A stretch of 64,000 nucleotides of DNA, from positions 1 through 64,000 of the forward strand of contig NZ_CP011930.1 in the NCBI RefSeq assembly GCF_001040945.1, given 5' to 3'. Source of the DNA: Herbaspirillum seropedicae (GTDB lineage: Bacteria; Pseudomonadota; Gammaproteobacteria; Burkholderiales; Burkholderiaceae_D). Each line of letters begins with the position of its first letter. Position 1 is the stretch's first letter. Below the pieces are notes generated by a model, which saw only the letters and a list, made by a program, of their open reading frames with translations, had not been told where the DNA came from and made no database searches. This document shows positions 5,754 to 12,429 of the stretch, in pieces. The position numbers and the translations under genes were made by a program.

Positions 5754-5791
5754 CCTTGTCTGTAGATAGCCGCATAAACTGAGAAAAAATG

Positions 5792-5823
5792 GGCCCATAT
5801 GTGATAAACATATGGGCCTTTTG
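5792..5823 (+). terminator. Rho-independent terminator of gyrB
   Basis: A perfect 10-bp stem GGCCCATATG / CATATGGGCC (5792-5801 with 5809-5818) is followed by TTTT. It marks the left edge of the AT-rich island. Confidence 0.85.
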
Positions 5824-5852: not shown

Positions 5853-6176
5853 CTAGCCCAAGAGAGGCGCTAACGACTTGATAACCTTCGCTAATTGATT
5901 TGCTTTTCTTTTATCGCCGCTCAAGACAGTGCGAAGGGTATCTAGCAGCTCGGGGAAATTCTCTAGATCCGTATTGGCTTCAACGGTTTCAATATTTGCA
6001 TAGTTGCATAACTTCAGCAAATTTCCATCAGCCCTTCTACAGACACCAGATAAAATCCGCGAAATTTGCGATTGATGGACGCCCGTCCGTACAGATAGCT
6101 CAACCTGGCTGAGTCCAGTCGCGACCATATATGCGCGTAAGTCGGAAACAAGTTCTGATGTGATGCGTTTTTTCAT
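5853..6176 (-). CDS. XRE-type HTH regulator of the RT island
   Basis: A small DNA-binding protein (107 residues from the ATG at 6176, starting MKKRITSEL). The helix-turn-helix lies around LSQVELSVRTGVHQSQISRIL, a Cro/C1 (XRE) fold, followed by a short helical tail of unknown role. In-frame ATGs at 6203 and 6221 would add 9 or 15 residues. The shorter form is preferred because it leaves the TGCAT-rich operator-like stretch outside the gene. It is transcribed away from the sce7726-sce7725-RT genes and shares their promoter region, the layout of a local repressor. Base composition matches the AT-rich island. Target and inducer are unknown. Confidence 0.7.
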   Translation of the reverse strand: MKKRITSELVSDLRAYMVATGLSQVELSVRTGVHQSQISRILSGVCRRADGNLLKLCNYANIETVEANTDLENFPELLDTLRTVLSGDKRKANQLAKVIKSLAPLLG

Positions 6177-6182
6177 ACCGGG

Positions 6183-6232
6183 ATTATGCAATAAATTATG
6201 CATATCTGCATATGTCCGCATATAATTACTGC
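6183..6232. promoter_or_regulatory. Divergent promoter and likely XRE operator
   Basis: The segment is packed with TATGCA/TGCATA half-sites: TTATGCA at 6185-6191, TATGCAT at 6198-6204, TGCATA at 6208-6213 and GCATATAA at 6218-6225. A good -10 TATAAT for the rightward operon lies at 6221-6226, about 35 bases before the ATG at 6261. No strong -35 is visible, which is compatible with a regulated promoter. Binding by the divergent XRE protein is an inference. Confidence 0.5.
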
Positions 6233-6260
6233 TGCATTCACATACCGTAGCCTTGCTGCC

Positions 6261-7127
6261 ATGGAGAATTTTGATAAAAACGGGCGTTATCTCACTAAGT
6301 TATTTACGGCCACCACTTTGAGGTCGTTGGCGACCCAACCTTCGAATCAGATTGTTGCTGATGCATTGCGCTGTTCGAACGAGCTTGGATCCAAACTTAA
6401 TGGAACTCTTGGCGACATCTTTAACGGTGTTTTCGATCACATGTGCCGATCTTATCGATCGGAGTACATCTATAAGAATGCTATTGCCACGAAGATTCTC
6501 GAAGGAAAGCACTCTTTAAGAGCGGCTACATTTTTGAGTGAATTTCGTGTTAACCAATCAAAAGCTGACACGGTCATTTTGAACGGGACGTCGTCCGTAT
6601 ACGAGATCAAAACAGAGTTAGATGATTTGGCTCGACTACCGGCCCAGCTTGATGATTATGCAAAAGTTTTCGATCAGATTTCCGTAGTTACCCACGAGGG
6701 TGGCATTGATCTATTGAGGAAAGTGCTTCCGGATCATGTAGGTATCATTTCTTTGACCCCTCGATATACTTTGCGGACTCACCGCCGGCCAATATCAAAT
6801 AAGGCAAATACCCTCCCCGAATTTATATTCTCATCATTGCGTCAAAAAGAGTATTTAGCGATCTTGTACGAGTTGTGTGGGTTCGTGCCAAATGTGCCCG
6901 ATGCTCTGCTCTATGAGTGCTGCCTAGAGCGATTTCGTAGCCTTCGTCCCGAGGAGGCTCACGATGCGATGGTTCGTGTCTTGAGGATGCGCTCAGCTGA
7001 AAGCGACTATGCAGACTTTATTTCGCGTTTGCCACGGTCATTAAAATCGGTTGGTCTTGGCGCTAGGCTGACAAAAAAAGAGAGGTTTGCGTTGTTAGCT
7101 AGACTTAACTCAAGTTACGTGATTTAG
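6261..7127 (+). CDS. sce7726 family protein, nuclease-like D...ExK core
   Basis: Recognised as an sce7726-family protein, a family usually found beside sce7725-family genes and of undetermined function. The 288-residue product has a core resembling the PD-(D/E)xK nuclease fold: KADTVIL with Asp103, then YEIKTE with Glu115 and Lys117 about a dozen residues on, then a helix. This suggests a DNA or RNA nuclease, but no activity is established. The ATG at 6261 (MENFDKNG) is chosen because it lies downstream of TATAAT; an in-frame ATG at 6198 would sit inside the promoter. No strong Shine-Dalgarno is seen. It is first in a four-gene rightward run, with AT-rich codon use unlike gyrB. Confidence 0.75.
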   Translation: MENFDKNGRYLTKLFTATTLRSLATQPSNQIVADALRCSNELGSKLNGTLGDIFNGVFDHMCRSYRSEYIYKNAIATKILEGKHSLRAATFLSEFRVNQSKADTVILNGTSSVYEIKTELDDLARLPAQLDDYAKVFDQISVVTHEGGIDLLRKVLPDHVGIISLTPRYTLRTHRRPISNKANTLPEFIFSSLRQKEYLAILYELCGFVPNVPDALLYECCLERFRSLRPEEAHDAMVRVLRMRSAESDYADFISRLPRSLKSVGLGARLTKKERFALLARLNSSYVI

Positions 7128-7183
7128 CTGATCAGTAATTCAAGCTACAATGGCCCCAATAACAATTTTCTCAGGGGGCTAGA

Positions 7184-8122
7184 ATGTATGTTCCATATCT
7201 ATATGGGCAGAAGTTTGAATTGCAGGCGCTTCGCGAATTAGTTACCAAGTTAGCCACCAAGAGGCGTGTTAATCCGTTAATTGACCCGGTAACTAGCAAA
7301 AACAAGGATCTTGTCCGCACGCTTTCTCTACTGGAAGAGCAGCATCTTCGATACTTCTTGATCATCAATCCTGATCGGGGAGATTTTGAAGATAAACCGG
7401 AGGGGAACGACTCTGTAAAAAATTGGTTTACCGAGCTGCATAGCGATATTCTTCCGCATGCCGCCCAGCTGATCCCAACATTCAAAATCACTGCGGCTAA
7501 TGATCCCAGTGAGCTCAAACAGTTTCTTGCAATTTACAAAGAACGAACCGTCGCTTTAGTTCATAAAGCGGAATTGGCAAAGATACCGAAGTTCTCGGGC
7601 CGTACCATTCACATCTTCTCGGCAGAGCACACATCATCTCCATATCAAGACCTCTTTGTAGAGGACCGTATTCTTATCCGAGACGGGTTCAATCGCCAGG
7701 CTAAGAACGCACTGTACCCGGAGATTGAGCATTACGACGACCTGAATGTCACATATGCGGATAAGAAATTTCAAGGTTTCGGAGACTACACAATAACCGG
7801 CGATTATTTTTCATCGGGTGGCGGCGAAGCTTATGCCGTAGCCATTCATATGACAAGAGTGCACCCGGATCACGGGACACTGCAGATGCTGCATTTTGTC
7901 TCGGATACGATTACCGTCCCTCCCCGCGACAATTCGATGAAATACGGGCAGGCAGTTCGAAAGCTTGCTGAATACGTTAATAAACGTAAAAGTGATTTCA
8001 AGTATTCATCTTCTCTCCAGCTTTTTGTCCATGATGCAAAGACACTTGCCTACCATGGATTGGGGGAAATAAAAGGTCGTTCAATCCGGCATCATATTGA
8101 AACGATCGAACATCTCTACTAG
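7184..8122 (+). CDS. sce7725 (beta-like) family protein
   Basis: A 312-residue protein whose N-terminus, MYVPYLYGQKFELQALREL, matches the start typical of sce7725-family proteins, themselves related to the phage-encoded beta protein family. No enzymatic motif, signal peptide or membrane segment is apparent. It follows sce7726 by 56 bases, the pairing usual for these families, with AGGGGG before the ATG. The family function is not known to me. Being conserved next to an sce7726 nuclease-like protein, it may be a partner, specificity or immunity subunit, but that is inference. Here the pair is joined to a reverse transcriptase gene 54 bases downstream. Confidence 0.72.
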   Translation: MYVPYLYGQKFELQALRELVTKLATKRRVNPLIDPVTSKNKDLVRTLSLLEEQHLRYFLIINPDRGDFEDKPEGNDSVKNWFTELHSDILPHAAQLIPTFKITAANDPSELKQFLAIYKERTVALVHKAELAKIPKFSGRTIHIFSAEHTSSPYQDLFVEDRILIRDGFNRQAKNALYPEIEHYDDLNVTYADKKFQGFGDYTITGDYFSSGGGEAYAVAIHMTRVHPDHGTLQMLHFVSDTITVPPRDNSMKYGQAVRKLAEYVNKRKSDFKYSSSLQLFVHDAKTLAYHGLGEIKGRSIRHHIETIEHLY

Positions 8123-8176
8123 CAGTCGCTAAGCGAAAGTTCCAGGAAAGAATAGCCAAAAAAGGACTTAGTAGGT

Positions 8177-11100
8177 ATGTACAAAGTAACGCTAGCAGAT
8201 CTGTATGTCGCGTACAGAAAAGCGAAGGCGGAGGCGTTTTATGAGAATACGCACTTCCATGCCCTGGCTTTTACGGAGTATGAGCAAAAACTGGATGAGA
8301 ATTTAAGAGGCTTGCTTACCATTCTCTTAGATGATGCCTCGCCATGGTCAAGGTTAGATATCCAGGGGGATTATGCATACTTACCGAAGTCTGTTGACTG
8401 TGAGCCTTGGGAAAATGGGCATGAAGGACACTTCCGTGCTTTAAATCCACTACTGGACTGGCAGCAGCGGTTCCAGGAAAAGCGAATTCCTGCGATCGCT
8501 AAGCTCCGCCTCGTGATTAGGCCAACCGTAAACTTCCAAATAATTTCAGCACTATGGATTATTAAGGTCGGGCATAAATTCGACGCCGTAATTAATACGG
8601 AGGTTTCACACGGTAACCGCCTGCGTCGACGATCACGGAAGATAGACGAAAAATGGAGCGCGCGTGGCCCCCTAAATATGACTGCCGCGGGTCTCTTCGC
8701 TCCCTATTTTTCTGCTTATCGAAAATGGAGAGAGACCGGCCTCAATAGAATGGAAGAGTCTTTAAAGCAAGGCAAAGATATTCTAGCCATCACCATGGAT
8801 CTAGAGCAGTTCTACCATCGTGTCGCTCCAACATTCTTACTGCGTAAGTCATTTTTACAGTCCATCCGGCTCAAGCTCACTACATTCGAGCGGCAATTCA
8901 CAACAGACCTGTTAGATGCGATAGCGCTGTGGTACGAACAGACACCAGACTTCAAAGTTCGACCTCAAGGTGCTCTGCCCGTTGGATTATCCGCATCGAA
9001 GATAATCTCAAACGTACTTCTAGCGAACTTCGACAATGCAATCTTGCAGAAGATTAAGCCGATCTACTATGGTCGCTATGTAGATGACATATTCTTAGTG
9101 TTCGAAAACACAAAATTGGCCGTCAACGCAAAAGAAGTAACTCAGCGTATTGCAAAGGCAATGCATCCAATGTTGACCATTCCTGAGAATCAGGAAGGAT
9201 CGCCCTCGATCAGGTTGAAAATCCCATACGCGATGGATTCAGAACTGATTTTCGCTGGGACAAAACAAAAAATATTCTCGCTTTCCTCTCCTCACGGGTT
9301 GGATCTAATTCAGCATATTCGTGAACAGATCCGGATTCAATCTAGCGAGTATCGCCTTCTACCCGTAGTGCCAAATACCGCAGTGGAAATGGCTTCTAGA
9401 GCACTTCTTGCGACACCTGACGCATCTTTGCAGGTGGACGCCCTTCGAAAAGCTGACGTAGTTTCTGTTCGTCGCCTAGGGCTTTCGTTACTTCTAAGAG
9501 ATATCGAAGCATATTCTGCCGATCTTCGACCCGACTCATGGCATTCAATTCGAGCAGAGTTCTATGGCCTGGTAAAACGTCACGTGATAACGCCTGCTGG
9601 ATTCTTTGAATTCATCAGCTATGTTCCTCGAGTATTTGGGTTGATGCTGAGCTGCGGGGACACAGTAGAGGCGGAACAACTTATCTTCGAACTTAACGAT
9701 GTGGTGAATATACTGAGAAAAACCACCACTGCGGGGTCCGAAGAGCAAGCTAAGAATTTTGATCTGGCAGTCTATCAGTATGCTCTAGCACTTCAGCAAG
9801 CAGGGTATCAGGCCGCTACTGAGCGTAGCGTAGAACTTGATATTACTTATCTACGCGTCCTGAAGAAGCTCTCCTCTCTTTATCCCTCGATTGAGATTCC
9901 TAGAACAACCCAAGCATTTAAGAAGGTGGTGCACGAAATTTTGCTTTCGGATTGGGGACGGCGTCCATACAAAGATTATTGGTATCAAACACAGGAAGAC
10001 GATGAAATCGGGCCTCCTGTCCCAGATGATGTGGAAATCAGGCGTAACCTTAGATTAGGTGGCATTCGACGATTCCGCAAAGGGTTTACTGACCTTAAAA
10101 CTCCACACTGGCCAGCATTAGCGTTTCCAACTAGGCCACTACGTATCGACGAGATTGCTCTGGTTGCCCCGAAGGTATTTGAAAGTAGCTATCTATTTAA
10201 GCTGGCGGTGATGTCACTGCGTGGGGCCAAAGTGATATCTAAGGAGGAGCTAGGAATACCGCCACCTTCACCAATTGATATTGAAGAAAAATTGGTCCGG
10301 TTTTCGGTACCAGCACCAGCAAAGGACATGATCAGGGTAGCTGTGACCAGCTTTGAAACCTCGCACGAGCAATGGGAAGCGGCGGCCAAAGGCAAGCAAG
10401 ACCGCTCCGTAGCTAGATATCGAAATTTGAATGAACTCATTAATAGAATCCTCAAGGAGGGGAAGCGCCCGCATTACATAATTCTGCCAGAGTTAAGCAT
10501 CCCGCTTCGCTGGGCGCTTCGTGTAGCAAGAAAGCTTGCGATGAATGATGTGTCGATCCTAGCAGGCGTCGAATACAACAAAGATCGCAACACCGGTCGC
10601 CTACGAAATGACTGCCTTGTCTCACTAGTGACCAACTGGCCGGGATATCGTGGGAACATTGCGAGACTACAGCCTAAATTTATTCCTGCGCATGGGGAGC
10701 GGGATGCGTTAAAAAAAATAAGAATGAACAGGAAAAAGTTGCAGCTTTTTGAACCAAAAGGGATGTTGGCAAAGCCGACAGTCTATTCACATGGTGGCTT
10801 CTTTTTCTCCATATTGATCTGTAGCGACCTGACTAATATCGAGCATCGACATCAATTGCGAGGGGAGATCGATACACTATTTGCCTTGGAATGGAATTCC
10901 GACTTAAAAACCTTTTCTCCTTTGGTGGAAGCGACGGCAAATGATTTGCATGCATATGTTGTACAAATCAATAACCGTTCATACGGTGACAGCCGCATAC
11001 GCTCACCCTCGCGAATAGACCATGCAAGAGATGTCGTTCAAGTAAAAGGCGGAGCAAGCGACTACTATGTGATCGGAGAGATTGACTACCACGCACTGCG

Positions 11101-11245
11101 GTTAGAGCAGTCTTCTACAAAAGAGAAAGCTCGATTTAAGCCAATTCCGATCGGATTTAAGATGTCTGCGCCACGTATCAAAGACCTAAAGCAAAAAGTC
11201 GCATCTTCGAAAAATGAGCACAAAAAAATCTTCAAAAAGATGTAA
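8177..11245 (+). CDS. Reverse transcriptase fused to nitrilase-like domain (DRT/UG class)
   Basis: A 1022-residue two-domain protein. Residues about 150-400 form a reverse transcriptase palm: motif A ITMDLEQFY with Asp208, motif B RPQGALPVG with Gln264-Gly265, and the catalytic YVDD at 301-304. A helical middle region (about 400-700) has no recognised fold. Residues about 725-985 form a carbon-nitrogen hydrolase (nitrilase) domain with a plausible intact triad: Glu772 (ILPELS), Lys834 (QPKFIPAHGE) and Cys882 (LICSDL). RT-nitrilase fusions occur among the Unknown Group/Abi reverse transcriptases, including DRT type 1 antiphage systems. No maturase or integrase domain suggests a group II intron or retron. 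Nothing is truncated. Subgroup needs a phylogeny. Confidence 0.88.
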   Translation: MYKVTLADLYVAYRKAKAEAFYENTHFHALAFTEYEQKLDENLRGLLTILLDDASPWSRLDIQGDYAYLPKSVDCEPWENGHEGHFRALNPLLDWQQRFQEKRIPAIAKLRLVIRPTVNFQIISALWIIKVGHKFDAVINTEVSHGNRLRRRSRKIDEKWSARGPLNMTAAGLFAPYFSAYRKWRETGLNRMEESLKQGKDILAITMDLEQFYHRVAPTFLLRKSFLQSIRLKLTTFERQFTTDLLDAIALWYEQTPDFKVRPQGALPVGLSASKIISNVLLANFDNAILQKIKPIYYGRYVDDIFLVFENTKLAVNAKEVTQRIAKAMHPMLTIPENQEGSPSIRLKIPYAMDSELIFAGTKQKIFSLSSPHGLDLIQHIREQIRIQSSEYRLLPVVPNTAVEMASRALLATPDASLQVDALRKADVVSVRRLGLSLLLRDIEAYSADLRPDSWHSIRAEFYGLVKRHVITPAGFFEFISYVPRVFGLMLSCGDTVEAEQLIFELNDVVNILRKTTTAGSEEQAKNFDLAVYQYALALQQAGYQAATERSVELDITYLRVLKKLSSLYPSIEIPRTTQAFKKVVHEILLSDWGRRPYKDYWYQTQEDDEIGPPVPDDVEIRRNLRLGGIRRFRKGFTDLKTPHWPALAFPTRPLRIDEIALVAPKVFESSYLFKLAVMSLRGAKVISKEELGIPPPSPIDIEEKLVRFSVPAPAKDMIRVAVTSFETSHEQWEAAAKGKQDRSVARYRNLNELINRILKEGKRPHYIILPELSIPLRWALRVARKLAMNDVSILAGVEYNKDRNTGRLRNDCLVSLVTNWPGYRGNIARLQPKFIPAHGERDALKKIRMNRKKLQLFEPKGMLAKPTVYSHGGFFFSILICSDLTNIEHRHQLRGEIDTLFALEWNSDLKTFSPLVEATANDLHAYVVQINNRSYGDSRIRSPSRIDHARDVVQVKGGASDYYVIGEIDYHALRLEQSSTKEKARFKPIPIGFKMSAPRIKDLKQKVASSKNEHKKIFKKM

Positions 11246-12347
11246 AAATAATCACCCGATCAGTTCAGTACCGGAGTTTTTAGACTTTTGCTTTAGGGAG
11301 CAGCAGCAGCTACCTGGGAAAAATATCGATCAGCTGGTCAAGACAATGGCTCACAATACGCTGGTCCCTTCTCGACCGCTCCAAGTCTACGAGATGGCGA
11401 GCGCCGATAGACTGGCAACCATGATGATGGATGCTGACTATCGCCATATTTGTGTCGCCGGCGGGATATTTCACTTTCAAGCGTGCTACCGCCATAGCGA
11501 AAAATATCCCGCTACGCGTGTCTACCAAATTAAACGGGAGCTTCTTGACGATGTCGCTCACTTGGGGATCTATCTAGAAAAGAAAGATATAAAATTGTCC
11601 CCGCTTAAAGTGGAGGACCTCCTAGTTTTGGCGGACGAGAAGGGCTATCCAGCTCGTTACGAAAAATTCAAAGAGGAGTGGCAGCGCAAGCTATCTGCGT
11701 TTAAAGGTCTCGCAGAGGGACGACAAGAGAATACGAAGATAAGCCAAAGCATATGGCTCGAAAGTCCCGGATGTATCGTGTGTGGGAGTGTCACAGATGA
11801 AATGGTCACCTCAACATTTGCATCTGATCAAGGGCTTCTTATTGGGATGAGATTTTGTGAACCCCATATGAAAGAGGCTTTCGCCTCAAAGAAAACTGCC
11901 CTAGCGTATGTGGCGGAGCATTGGGGTATGGCTGAAAGCTTCCTTTCCAAATTTAATTGGAAGTTCCACGAGCATAACGAACTAACACTTCAACTAAGTG
12001 CGGAAGCAGTAGCAAAGGAGCTGGACTGCAAAATATTGGGCATAAAGGGTGGAGTTATTACAGCTGAAAGATCTAGTGGTTTTATATTAAAACTTCGACT
12101 TGGCTCTTTGAGCGACTATGGCTACAACATTCTTTCTCCGTCGGAAGTTCCTTTGGCACGAATTGACTCAGCGAACCACCATGATGTCCCGTATGGACCG
12201 GATCATAAGCATCGGTCGCTCAAGAAAAAGAAAAAGAAGGTAGTCGAATCAAGTTTCACAACGGGTTTCCCTGTGGCCGATATTCCTGCGATTCGTAAAA
12301 TGGTGGAAGACGCAGAGGCTGAATACGGACGAGAAAAGGCGAAATAA
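11214..12347 (+). CDS. Unknown protein with CxxC...CxxH motif, coupled to the RT
   Basis: Not recognised. The 377-residue protein begins 32 bases inside the RT gene in another frame, so translation is probably coupled. It has a possible zinc site, Cys187-x2-Cys190 and Cys215-x2-His218, in a segment resembling a treble-clef or HNH-like knuckle but without a clear HNH catalytic His. Near the C-terminus a His-rich stretch (RIDSANHHDVPYGPDHKH) precedes a lysine run and a helical tail; this faintly recalls TumE-like toxins, but the resemblance is weak. No signal peptide or membrane helix. It ends the operon just before two hairpins. As the last gene of a putative defence operon it may be effector or accessory. 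Confidence 0.65.
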   Translation: MSTKKSSKRCKNNHPISSVPEFLDFCFREQQQLPGKNIDQLVKTMAHNTLVPSRPLQVYEMASADRLATMMMDADYRHICVAGGIFHFQACYRHSEKYPATRVYQIKRELLDDVAHLGIYLEKKDIKLSPLKVEDLLVLADEKGYPARYEKFKEEWQRKLSAFKGLAEGRQENTKISQSIWLESPGCIVCGSVTDEMVTSTFASDQGLLIGMRFCEPHMKEAFASKKTALAYVAEHWGMAESFLSKFNWKFHEHNELTLQLSAEAVAKELDCKILGIKGGVITAERSSGFILKLRLGSLSDYGYNILSPSEVPLARIDSANHHDVPYGPDHKHRSLKKKKKKVVESSFTTGFPVADIPAIRKMVEDAEAEYGREKAK

Positions 12348-12362
12348 ACAGCAACAAGCGGC

Positions 12363-12429
12363 AGCCGGGCTAGACAAGCCCGGCTTAAAAAAACATACGG
12401 CCACTTCCTAGAAGTGGCCGTATGTTTTT
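12363..12429. terminator. Tandem hairpins ending the RT island
   Basis: The first hairpin is AGCCGGGC (12363-12370) / GCCCGGCT (12378-12385). The second is a perfect 19-bp stem (12389-12407 with 12411-12429) with a 3-base loop, flanked by five A and five T, so it can terminate transcription from both directions: the RT operon on plus and the aminotransferase gene on minus. It marks the right edge of the AT-rich segment. Confidence 0.85.

Follow-up and report, generated by a model that had tools for sequence, protein, structure and literature searches.

A probable defense island downstream of gyrB in Herbaspirillum seropedicae stacks an sce7726–sce7725 pair, a UG5 reverse transcriptase-nitrilase, and a TumE-like gene

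Do the five closely spaced genes downstream of gyrB in Herbaspirillum seropedicae form one new defense system, or are they separate modules stacked at one site? The genes lie in the first 64,000 nucleotides (nt) of contig NZ_CP011930.1 (assembly GCF_001040945.1; forward strand), the whole stretch that was analyzed and that we call the window. They comprise one gene on the (−) strand, for an XRE-type protein, and four genes on the (+) strand, for an sce7726 family protein, an sce7725 family protein, a reverse transcriptase (RT) fused to a nitrilase, and a rare protein encoded by what we call the last gene. The original prediction read them as a single new five-gene defense system. Because each part is found elsewhere without the others, we regard them instead as a defense island, probably acquired horizontally at a post-gyrB hotspot, in which three modules are stacked: (i) the sce7726–sce7725 pair, akin to cII and, more weakly, to Beta of gop-beta-cII; (ii) a UG5 RT-nitrilase; and (iii) a putative TumE-like toxin. 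Two of these three modules are related to systems whose validation is described in the pertinent part of one 2022 paper (PMC9122126).

RESULTS

The three modules are found apart in other loci

Linkage was counted with hidden Markov models (HMMs) at an E-value of 0.001, or 0.01 for UG5-type loci, in loci whose flanks ranged from 0 to 10 kb. The sce7725 set was reduced from 53 loci to 33 distinct ones and reached 37 with four more from a search of 195 genomes of the family; the 37 were distinguished by one sequence stretch rather than by clustering and include truncated genes, and among the 32 UG5-type loci a few have partial or split genes, and one Escherichia coli gene is represented by two copies. 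Neither a UG5 RT nor a last-gene relative lay beside sce7725 in any of the 37 distinct loci; sce7726, sce7725, RES, and the last gene were all absent from the flanks of the 32 UG5-type loci; and no RT or sce pair was found near the last-gene family in its six other loci. The original prediction had named a lack of such co-occurrence beforehand as grounds for abandoning a single system, and the RT was found with the sce pair in 0 of 37 and 0 of 32 loci, the modules being together in no other locus read.

The pair itself is closely linked: sce7726 stood upstream of sce7725 in 36 of the 37 loci, in 34 of them within 100 nt, and the exception (L141) ends at a contig edge. A RES gene followed directly 3′ of sce7725 in 15 of the 37 (L105, L114, L116-L118, L120, L121, L123, L101, L088-L091, L100, and L207), as counted with an HMM built using four of these loci, and PF08808 was found in all four that were scanned. 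These sce7726–sce7725–RES rows were located on plasmids, in a Salmonella locus resembling an integrative and conjugative element (ICE), on viral contigs, and in one genome of the same family, and one Pseudomonas aeruginosa element is described as carrying RES, sce7725, and sce7726 proteins (PMC9394441). We consider the row a candidate NAD+-degrading defense system. Among the ten non-RES loci inspected, six (L104, L115, L124, L125, L127, and L128) had a strong hairpin at most 80 nt past sce7725, so the pair can stand alone. In L098, sce7726 and a short sce7725 lie between apparent restriction and modification genes.

Some UG5-type loci, read by eye, adjoin type I restriction genes, and the E. 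coli UG5-type locus adjoins an annotated AbiE pair. In a Nitrosospira locus (L003), the UG5 RT is broken into two open reading frames (ORFs).

The island lies in a region rich in defense genes

The island (Table 1) is bordered by gyrB on the left and by a convergent aminotransferase gene on the right. Its guanine-plus-cytosine (GC) content is 45–47% (about 46%) over six 1-kb bins covering 6001–12000, compared with 57–63% in six bins leftward, and all five frames are open. The spacings are 56 nt from sce7726 to sce7725, 54 nt from sce7725 to the RT gene, and −32 nt from the RT gene to the last gene, in line with the overlap noted originally; the ORFs, GC content, and fold z-scores likewise agree with the earlier description of an AT-rich island after gyrB with a divergent XRE gene, four rightward genes, and two strong hairpins. 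Judged by shape and place, both edge hairpins look like ordinary terminators. The right one sits between two convergent genes. Of 16 stretches from the same genus that were compared, 7 contained DNA related to the left hairpin region, sometimes distant from gyrB. The DNA of the island itself was missing from the 33 other genomes of the genus, in which the edges alone matched.

The scan of eight other genomes of the genus revealed that 9 of 10 post-gyrB proteins match PADLOC models at an E-value of 1e-5; six genomes had hits scoring at least 100 bits, and two had weak hits. The strong hits were to type I and II restriction or modification proteins, a GajA-like protein, and a helicase like ZorD/DpdE; one protein, by eye an apparent Tn7-like transposase, had no PADLOC match, and G692 seems, by eye, to have a Tn7-like element at this site (L177). 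The presence of other defense genes after gyrB in several genomes (G692, G673, G670, G688, G672, and G700; loci L176, L180, L183, L186, L189, and L191) suggests that the region downstream of gyrB is a defense hotspot in this genus and supports the defense role that had been proposed.

Two further arrangements were seen at this site. In G681 (L179, 220-266 and 1089-1152), both edge hairpins occur after gyrB, ~0.9 kb apart, with the left one inverted and other DNA between them. In G680 (L178) and G692 (L177), ~60 bp of post-gyrB sequence is repeated ~4 kb and 35 kb onward, as if cargo had entered there.

Table 1. Features of the island and its borders (positions in the window)
Feature	Position	Strand	Evidence
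Left hairpin, probable terminator, left island edge	5791..5819	+	Fold z −5.9 vs shuffles; just 3′ of gyrB
XRE/Cro-type helix-turn-helix protein, candidate regulator	5853..6221, possible start 6176	−	PF01381, 29.5 bits (cut-off 23)
Divergent gap, putatively regulatory (if XRE starts at 6176)	6177..6260		Direct repeat ATTATGCA at 6183-6190 and 6195-6202
sce7726/P4 cII family protein, likely PD-(D/E)xK nuclease fold (D103, E115, K117)	6261..7127	+	NF033832, 169 bits (cut-off 70)
sce7725 family protein, predicted TIM barrel	7184..8122	+	NF033831, 220 bits (cut-off 60)
UG5 RT-nitrilase (class 3 UG/Abi RT); YVDD 301-304, nitrilase E772/K834/E841/C882, candidate primer Ser390	8177..11245	+	PADLOC RT_UG5-nitrilase, 931 bits
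Rare protein, CxxC...CxxH middle part and TumE-like C-terminal part	11214..12347	+	377 amino acids; conserved Cys/His; TumE matches
Right hairpin, probably two-way terminator, right island edge	12389..12429	+	19-bp stem; fold z −7.4 vs shuffles

The RT is of a validated antiphage kind

The best PADLOC match of the RT (RT_UG5-nitrilase; Table 1) spans residues 3–1007, while a second UG5-nitrilase model scored 168 bits and the Drt1a models 103 and 34 bits. Grouped by these scores, the protein is a UG5 RT-nitrilase and not DRT type 1 (UG1). The earlier contention that the gene set is unlike DRT type 1 stands on this point but loses its novelty, as the UG5 RT-nitrilase has already been reported as a separate antiphage RT. 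From a P4-like satellite locus, Rousset et al. (2022) cloned a UG5 RT that ends in a nitrilase, together with its transmembrane partner, and observed phage resistance in E. coli; they liken this RT-nitrilase to type I DRT yet assign it to a different clade (PMC9122126). Since such a system already confers resistance, the RT described here belongs to a validated antiphage kind.

The RT domain matched PF00078 (40.4 bits; cut-off 29.6), the YxDD motif is intact, and the nitrilase Glu-Lys-Cys residues (E772, K834, and C882) are kept. We aligned 59 RT sequences (the island protein, 33 database proteins from a search in which 120 of 759 relatives were listed, and 25 locus proteins, duplicates included) and found Y301, D303, D304, E772, K834, E841, and C882 to be invariant, with V302 present in 58. 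Residues 870–996 match the solved DRT1 structure 9yfd in sequence; a Pfam scan of the RT gave no nitrilase match. Within residues 305–499, Ser390 is the sole fully invariant Ser/Thr/Tyr (59 of 59) and lies 86 residues after D304. The DNA primer of DRT1 is given as S402, 77 residues past D325, and according to the same paper other class 3 RTs do not conserve this serine (PMC13275509), so the parallel between the two serines is one of place only. Its position makes Ser390 a candidate DNA primer for this group of RT-nitrilases.

sce7726 belongs to the P4 cII family, and sce7725 weakly resembles Beta

The original prediction treated sce7726 and sce7725 as families of unknown role, and the surveys that mention them assign no function in the passages concerned. 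The island sce7726 scored 51 bits against the PADLOC model 'cll', which we take to be P4 cII and which was matched by 24 of 25 sce7726 proteins. A phmmer search with P4 cII retrieved the island protein (E-value, 7.5e-9), P4 cII scored 151 bits against the sce7726 model NF033832 (cut-off 70), the alignment of sce7726 proteins compared with P4 cII by hhalign gave an E-value of 1.3e-19 (probability, 99), and the RefSeq annotation of P4 cII is sce7726 family. By sequence comparison, sce7726 is therefore of the family of P4 cII, a component of the validated gop-beta-cII system, which protects E. coli against lambda and P1 according to the section on it (PMC9122126). The view of an unknown role consequently falls for sce7726, while for sce7725 the most that can be added is a weak likeness to Beta. 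E115 and K117 of sce7726 are invariant in 25 of 25 proteins, and the conserved D...ExK pattern agrees with a likely PD-(D/E)xK nuclease fold; the Pfam nuclease match was weak (2 of 25 members; best E-value, 0.02).

The predicted fold of the sce7725 protein is a TIM barrel, in keeping with the structure matches of a model with a predicted local distance difference test (pLDDT) score of 89.9. Its resemblance to P4 Beta is weak: hhalign returned an E-value of 0.0014 but a probability of 18, PF14350 (Beta_protein) was found in 5 of 28 members at an E-value of 0.1 with the best one under the cut-off, and a phmmer search with P4 Beta gave no match among the island ORFs. The PD-Lambda-2_C models matched at most 3 of the 28 members (best E-value, 0.004), and the passage on this component describes it as a relative of a P4 phage antitoxin (PMC9519451). 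On Azospirillum and Sinorhizobium fredii plasmids, Beta-like genes are convergent with sce7726 genes, an arrangement like that of P4.

The last gene may encode a single-gene toxin, and the XRE protein may be a regulator

The last-gene family comprises 15 proteins found by database search and occurs in 6 of the 195 genomes of the family, including the own genome, and on one viral contig. C187, C190, C215, and H218 are invariant in 16 of 16 members, and TumE/DUF6516 matches the C-terminal part of 14 of the 16 at an E-value of 0.1 or better (best, 2.9e-6); the island protein itself scored 19.9 bits against Pfam TumE, under the cut-off of 23.4. The structure model has a helix, six strands, and a helix, and TumE is described as having two helices and seven strands (PMC10584680). 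According to the same source, in the sections concerned, TumE toxins reduce protein synthesis and are restrained by an antitoxin in trans, and a fused antitoxin domain has been proposed for one TumE subcluster. No small antitoxin gene lies just 5′ of the last gene, where the neighbor is the RT gene. Judging from its sequence, the last gene may encode a single-gene toxin with built-in control, possibly through an antitoxin fused within the protein. A relative with 33% identity lies amid phage-like genes of the viral contig (L020, 9848-11035).

A start at 6176 rather than 6221 is possible for the XRE gene, in which case a regulatory gap containing the direct repeat would remain between the divergent genes; in the ORF list, the frame of sce7726 opens at an earlier ATG, at 6198. 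The XRE protein may control the rightward gene row.

DISCUSSION

The proposed defense role is supported by family, as both the UG5 RT-nitrilase and gop-beta-cII are described as validated in the relevant part of PMC9122126, and by the site. Several observations nonetheless weigh against a stack of separate modules. Neither a terminator-like site nor a (+) strand promoter-like site was seen in the sce7725–RT gap, and this as well as the 32-nt overlap of the last gene with the RT gene also fits one operon unit; the modules that share a direction may be cotranscribed. Partners could have been missed because flanks are short or missing in some loci, several of which have flanks of only 0–1.5 kb. 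For relatives of sce7725 and of the last gene with 99% identity, the longest contig listed has 97,811 bases in both cases, so the arrangement of the island is probably present in another record. Finally, the hotspot proteins were picked by eye, and the scan covers 8 of the 15 genomes fetched.

Alternatively, the genes could act as one integrated system in which the sce pair is the sensor and antitoxin and the RT-nitrilase is the toxin, in the position held elsewhere by the RES NAD+-phosphorylase. The position after sce7725 holds RES in 15 of 37 loci and here holds the RT gene, 54 nt on, in the same direction and with no terminator between, and the cII and Beta genes of P4 adjoin the toxin gene gop. 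We nevertheless find such a system unlikely, given that the arrangement was seen once, that UG5-type RTs occur without the sce pair in 32 of 32 loci, and that six of the ten non-RES loci inspected have a strong hairpin past the pair. In addition, for NatT, a RES toxin with a different antitoxin, the published account argues against a role in phage defense and reports no difference for >50 phages (PMC11535050). We are similarly doubtful of the broader idea that sce7726–sce7725, as cII plus a Beta-like TIM barrel, is a general module that senses infection and serves as antitoxin to exchangeable toxins: Gop in P4, RES elsewhere, and the RT-nitrilase here, which would make this row a hybrid of two defense families.

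Close spacing and shared direction would also suit a conserved system of all five genes, but the set appeared in none of the 37 distinct sce7725 loci, none of the 32 loci of UG5 type, and none of the six loci of the last gene, which makes this very improbable. We give slightly less credence still to degenerate remnants without function, for which the combination is rare enough and some sce-pair relatives are short or broken (L098, L103, and L209), since none of the five frames is interrupted and the catalytic residues are conserved.

For the RT-nitrilase, the main effector of the proposed stack, we suggest a mechanism by analogy with DRT1. The RT would make template-free, protein-primed DNA, predicted to start on Ser390, following the mechanism outlined for DRT1 in the portion of PMC13275509 that concerns it. 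The DNA adducts would keep the RT-nitrilase in a dormant assembly, from which phage replication would free it; the freed nitrilase (E772-K834-C882) would then attack an essential metabolite, and the infected cell would stop, amounting to abortive infection.

The analysis gives the poorly understood sce7726 and sce7725 families a testable place, with sce7726 in the cII family of a validated antiphage system and the pair often preceding the gene for a RES NAD+-degrading toxin, a family whose immune role is open or doubted in the account cited above (PMC11535050). It raises the question of whether the sce pair controls whichever gene holds the third position, and it names the invariant Ser390 as a candidate DNA primer for UG5 RT-nitrilases.

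Compared with known systems, the last-gene family resembles TumE-TumA in its C-terminal part, with TumE/DUF6516 matches in 14 of 16 members, although the island protein itself scores under the Pfam cut-off, adds a long N-terminal part with CxxC...CxxH, and has no adjacent antitoxin gene. The island shares with gop-beta-cII the sce7726 family, to which cII belongs; the gene order differs, and single-sequence searches detected neither a Gop-like nor a Beta-like ORF there (phmmer with P4 Gop gave no match among the island ORFs at an E-value of 1). With DRT1/UG1, the RT has in common an RT with a C-terminal nitrilase and a sequence match in the C-terminal part, whereas it scores 103 bits with Drt1a against 931 with the UG5 model. 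Unlike the UG5 RT-nitrilase with its one-transmembrane (1TM) partner, the RT here follows an sce7726–sce7725 pair, is overlapped by a TumE-like gene, and has no adjacent transmembrane protein, as a hydropathy scan of ORFs of at least 35 amino acids found no strongly hydrophobic one within 700 bp; such an ORF was likewise absent from 17 of the 24 loci of UG5 type that were scanned, the island included. With that system, the island shares a UG5 RT carrying a nitrilase at its C terminus and a location in a defense hotspot.

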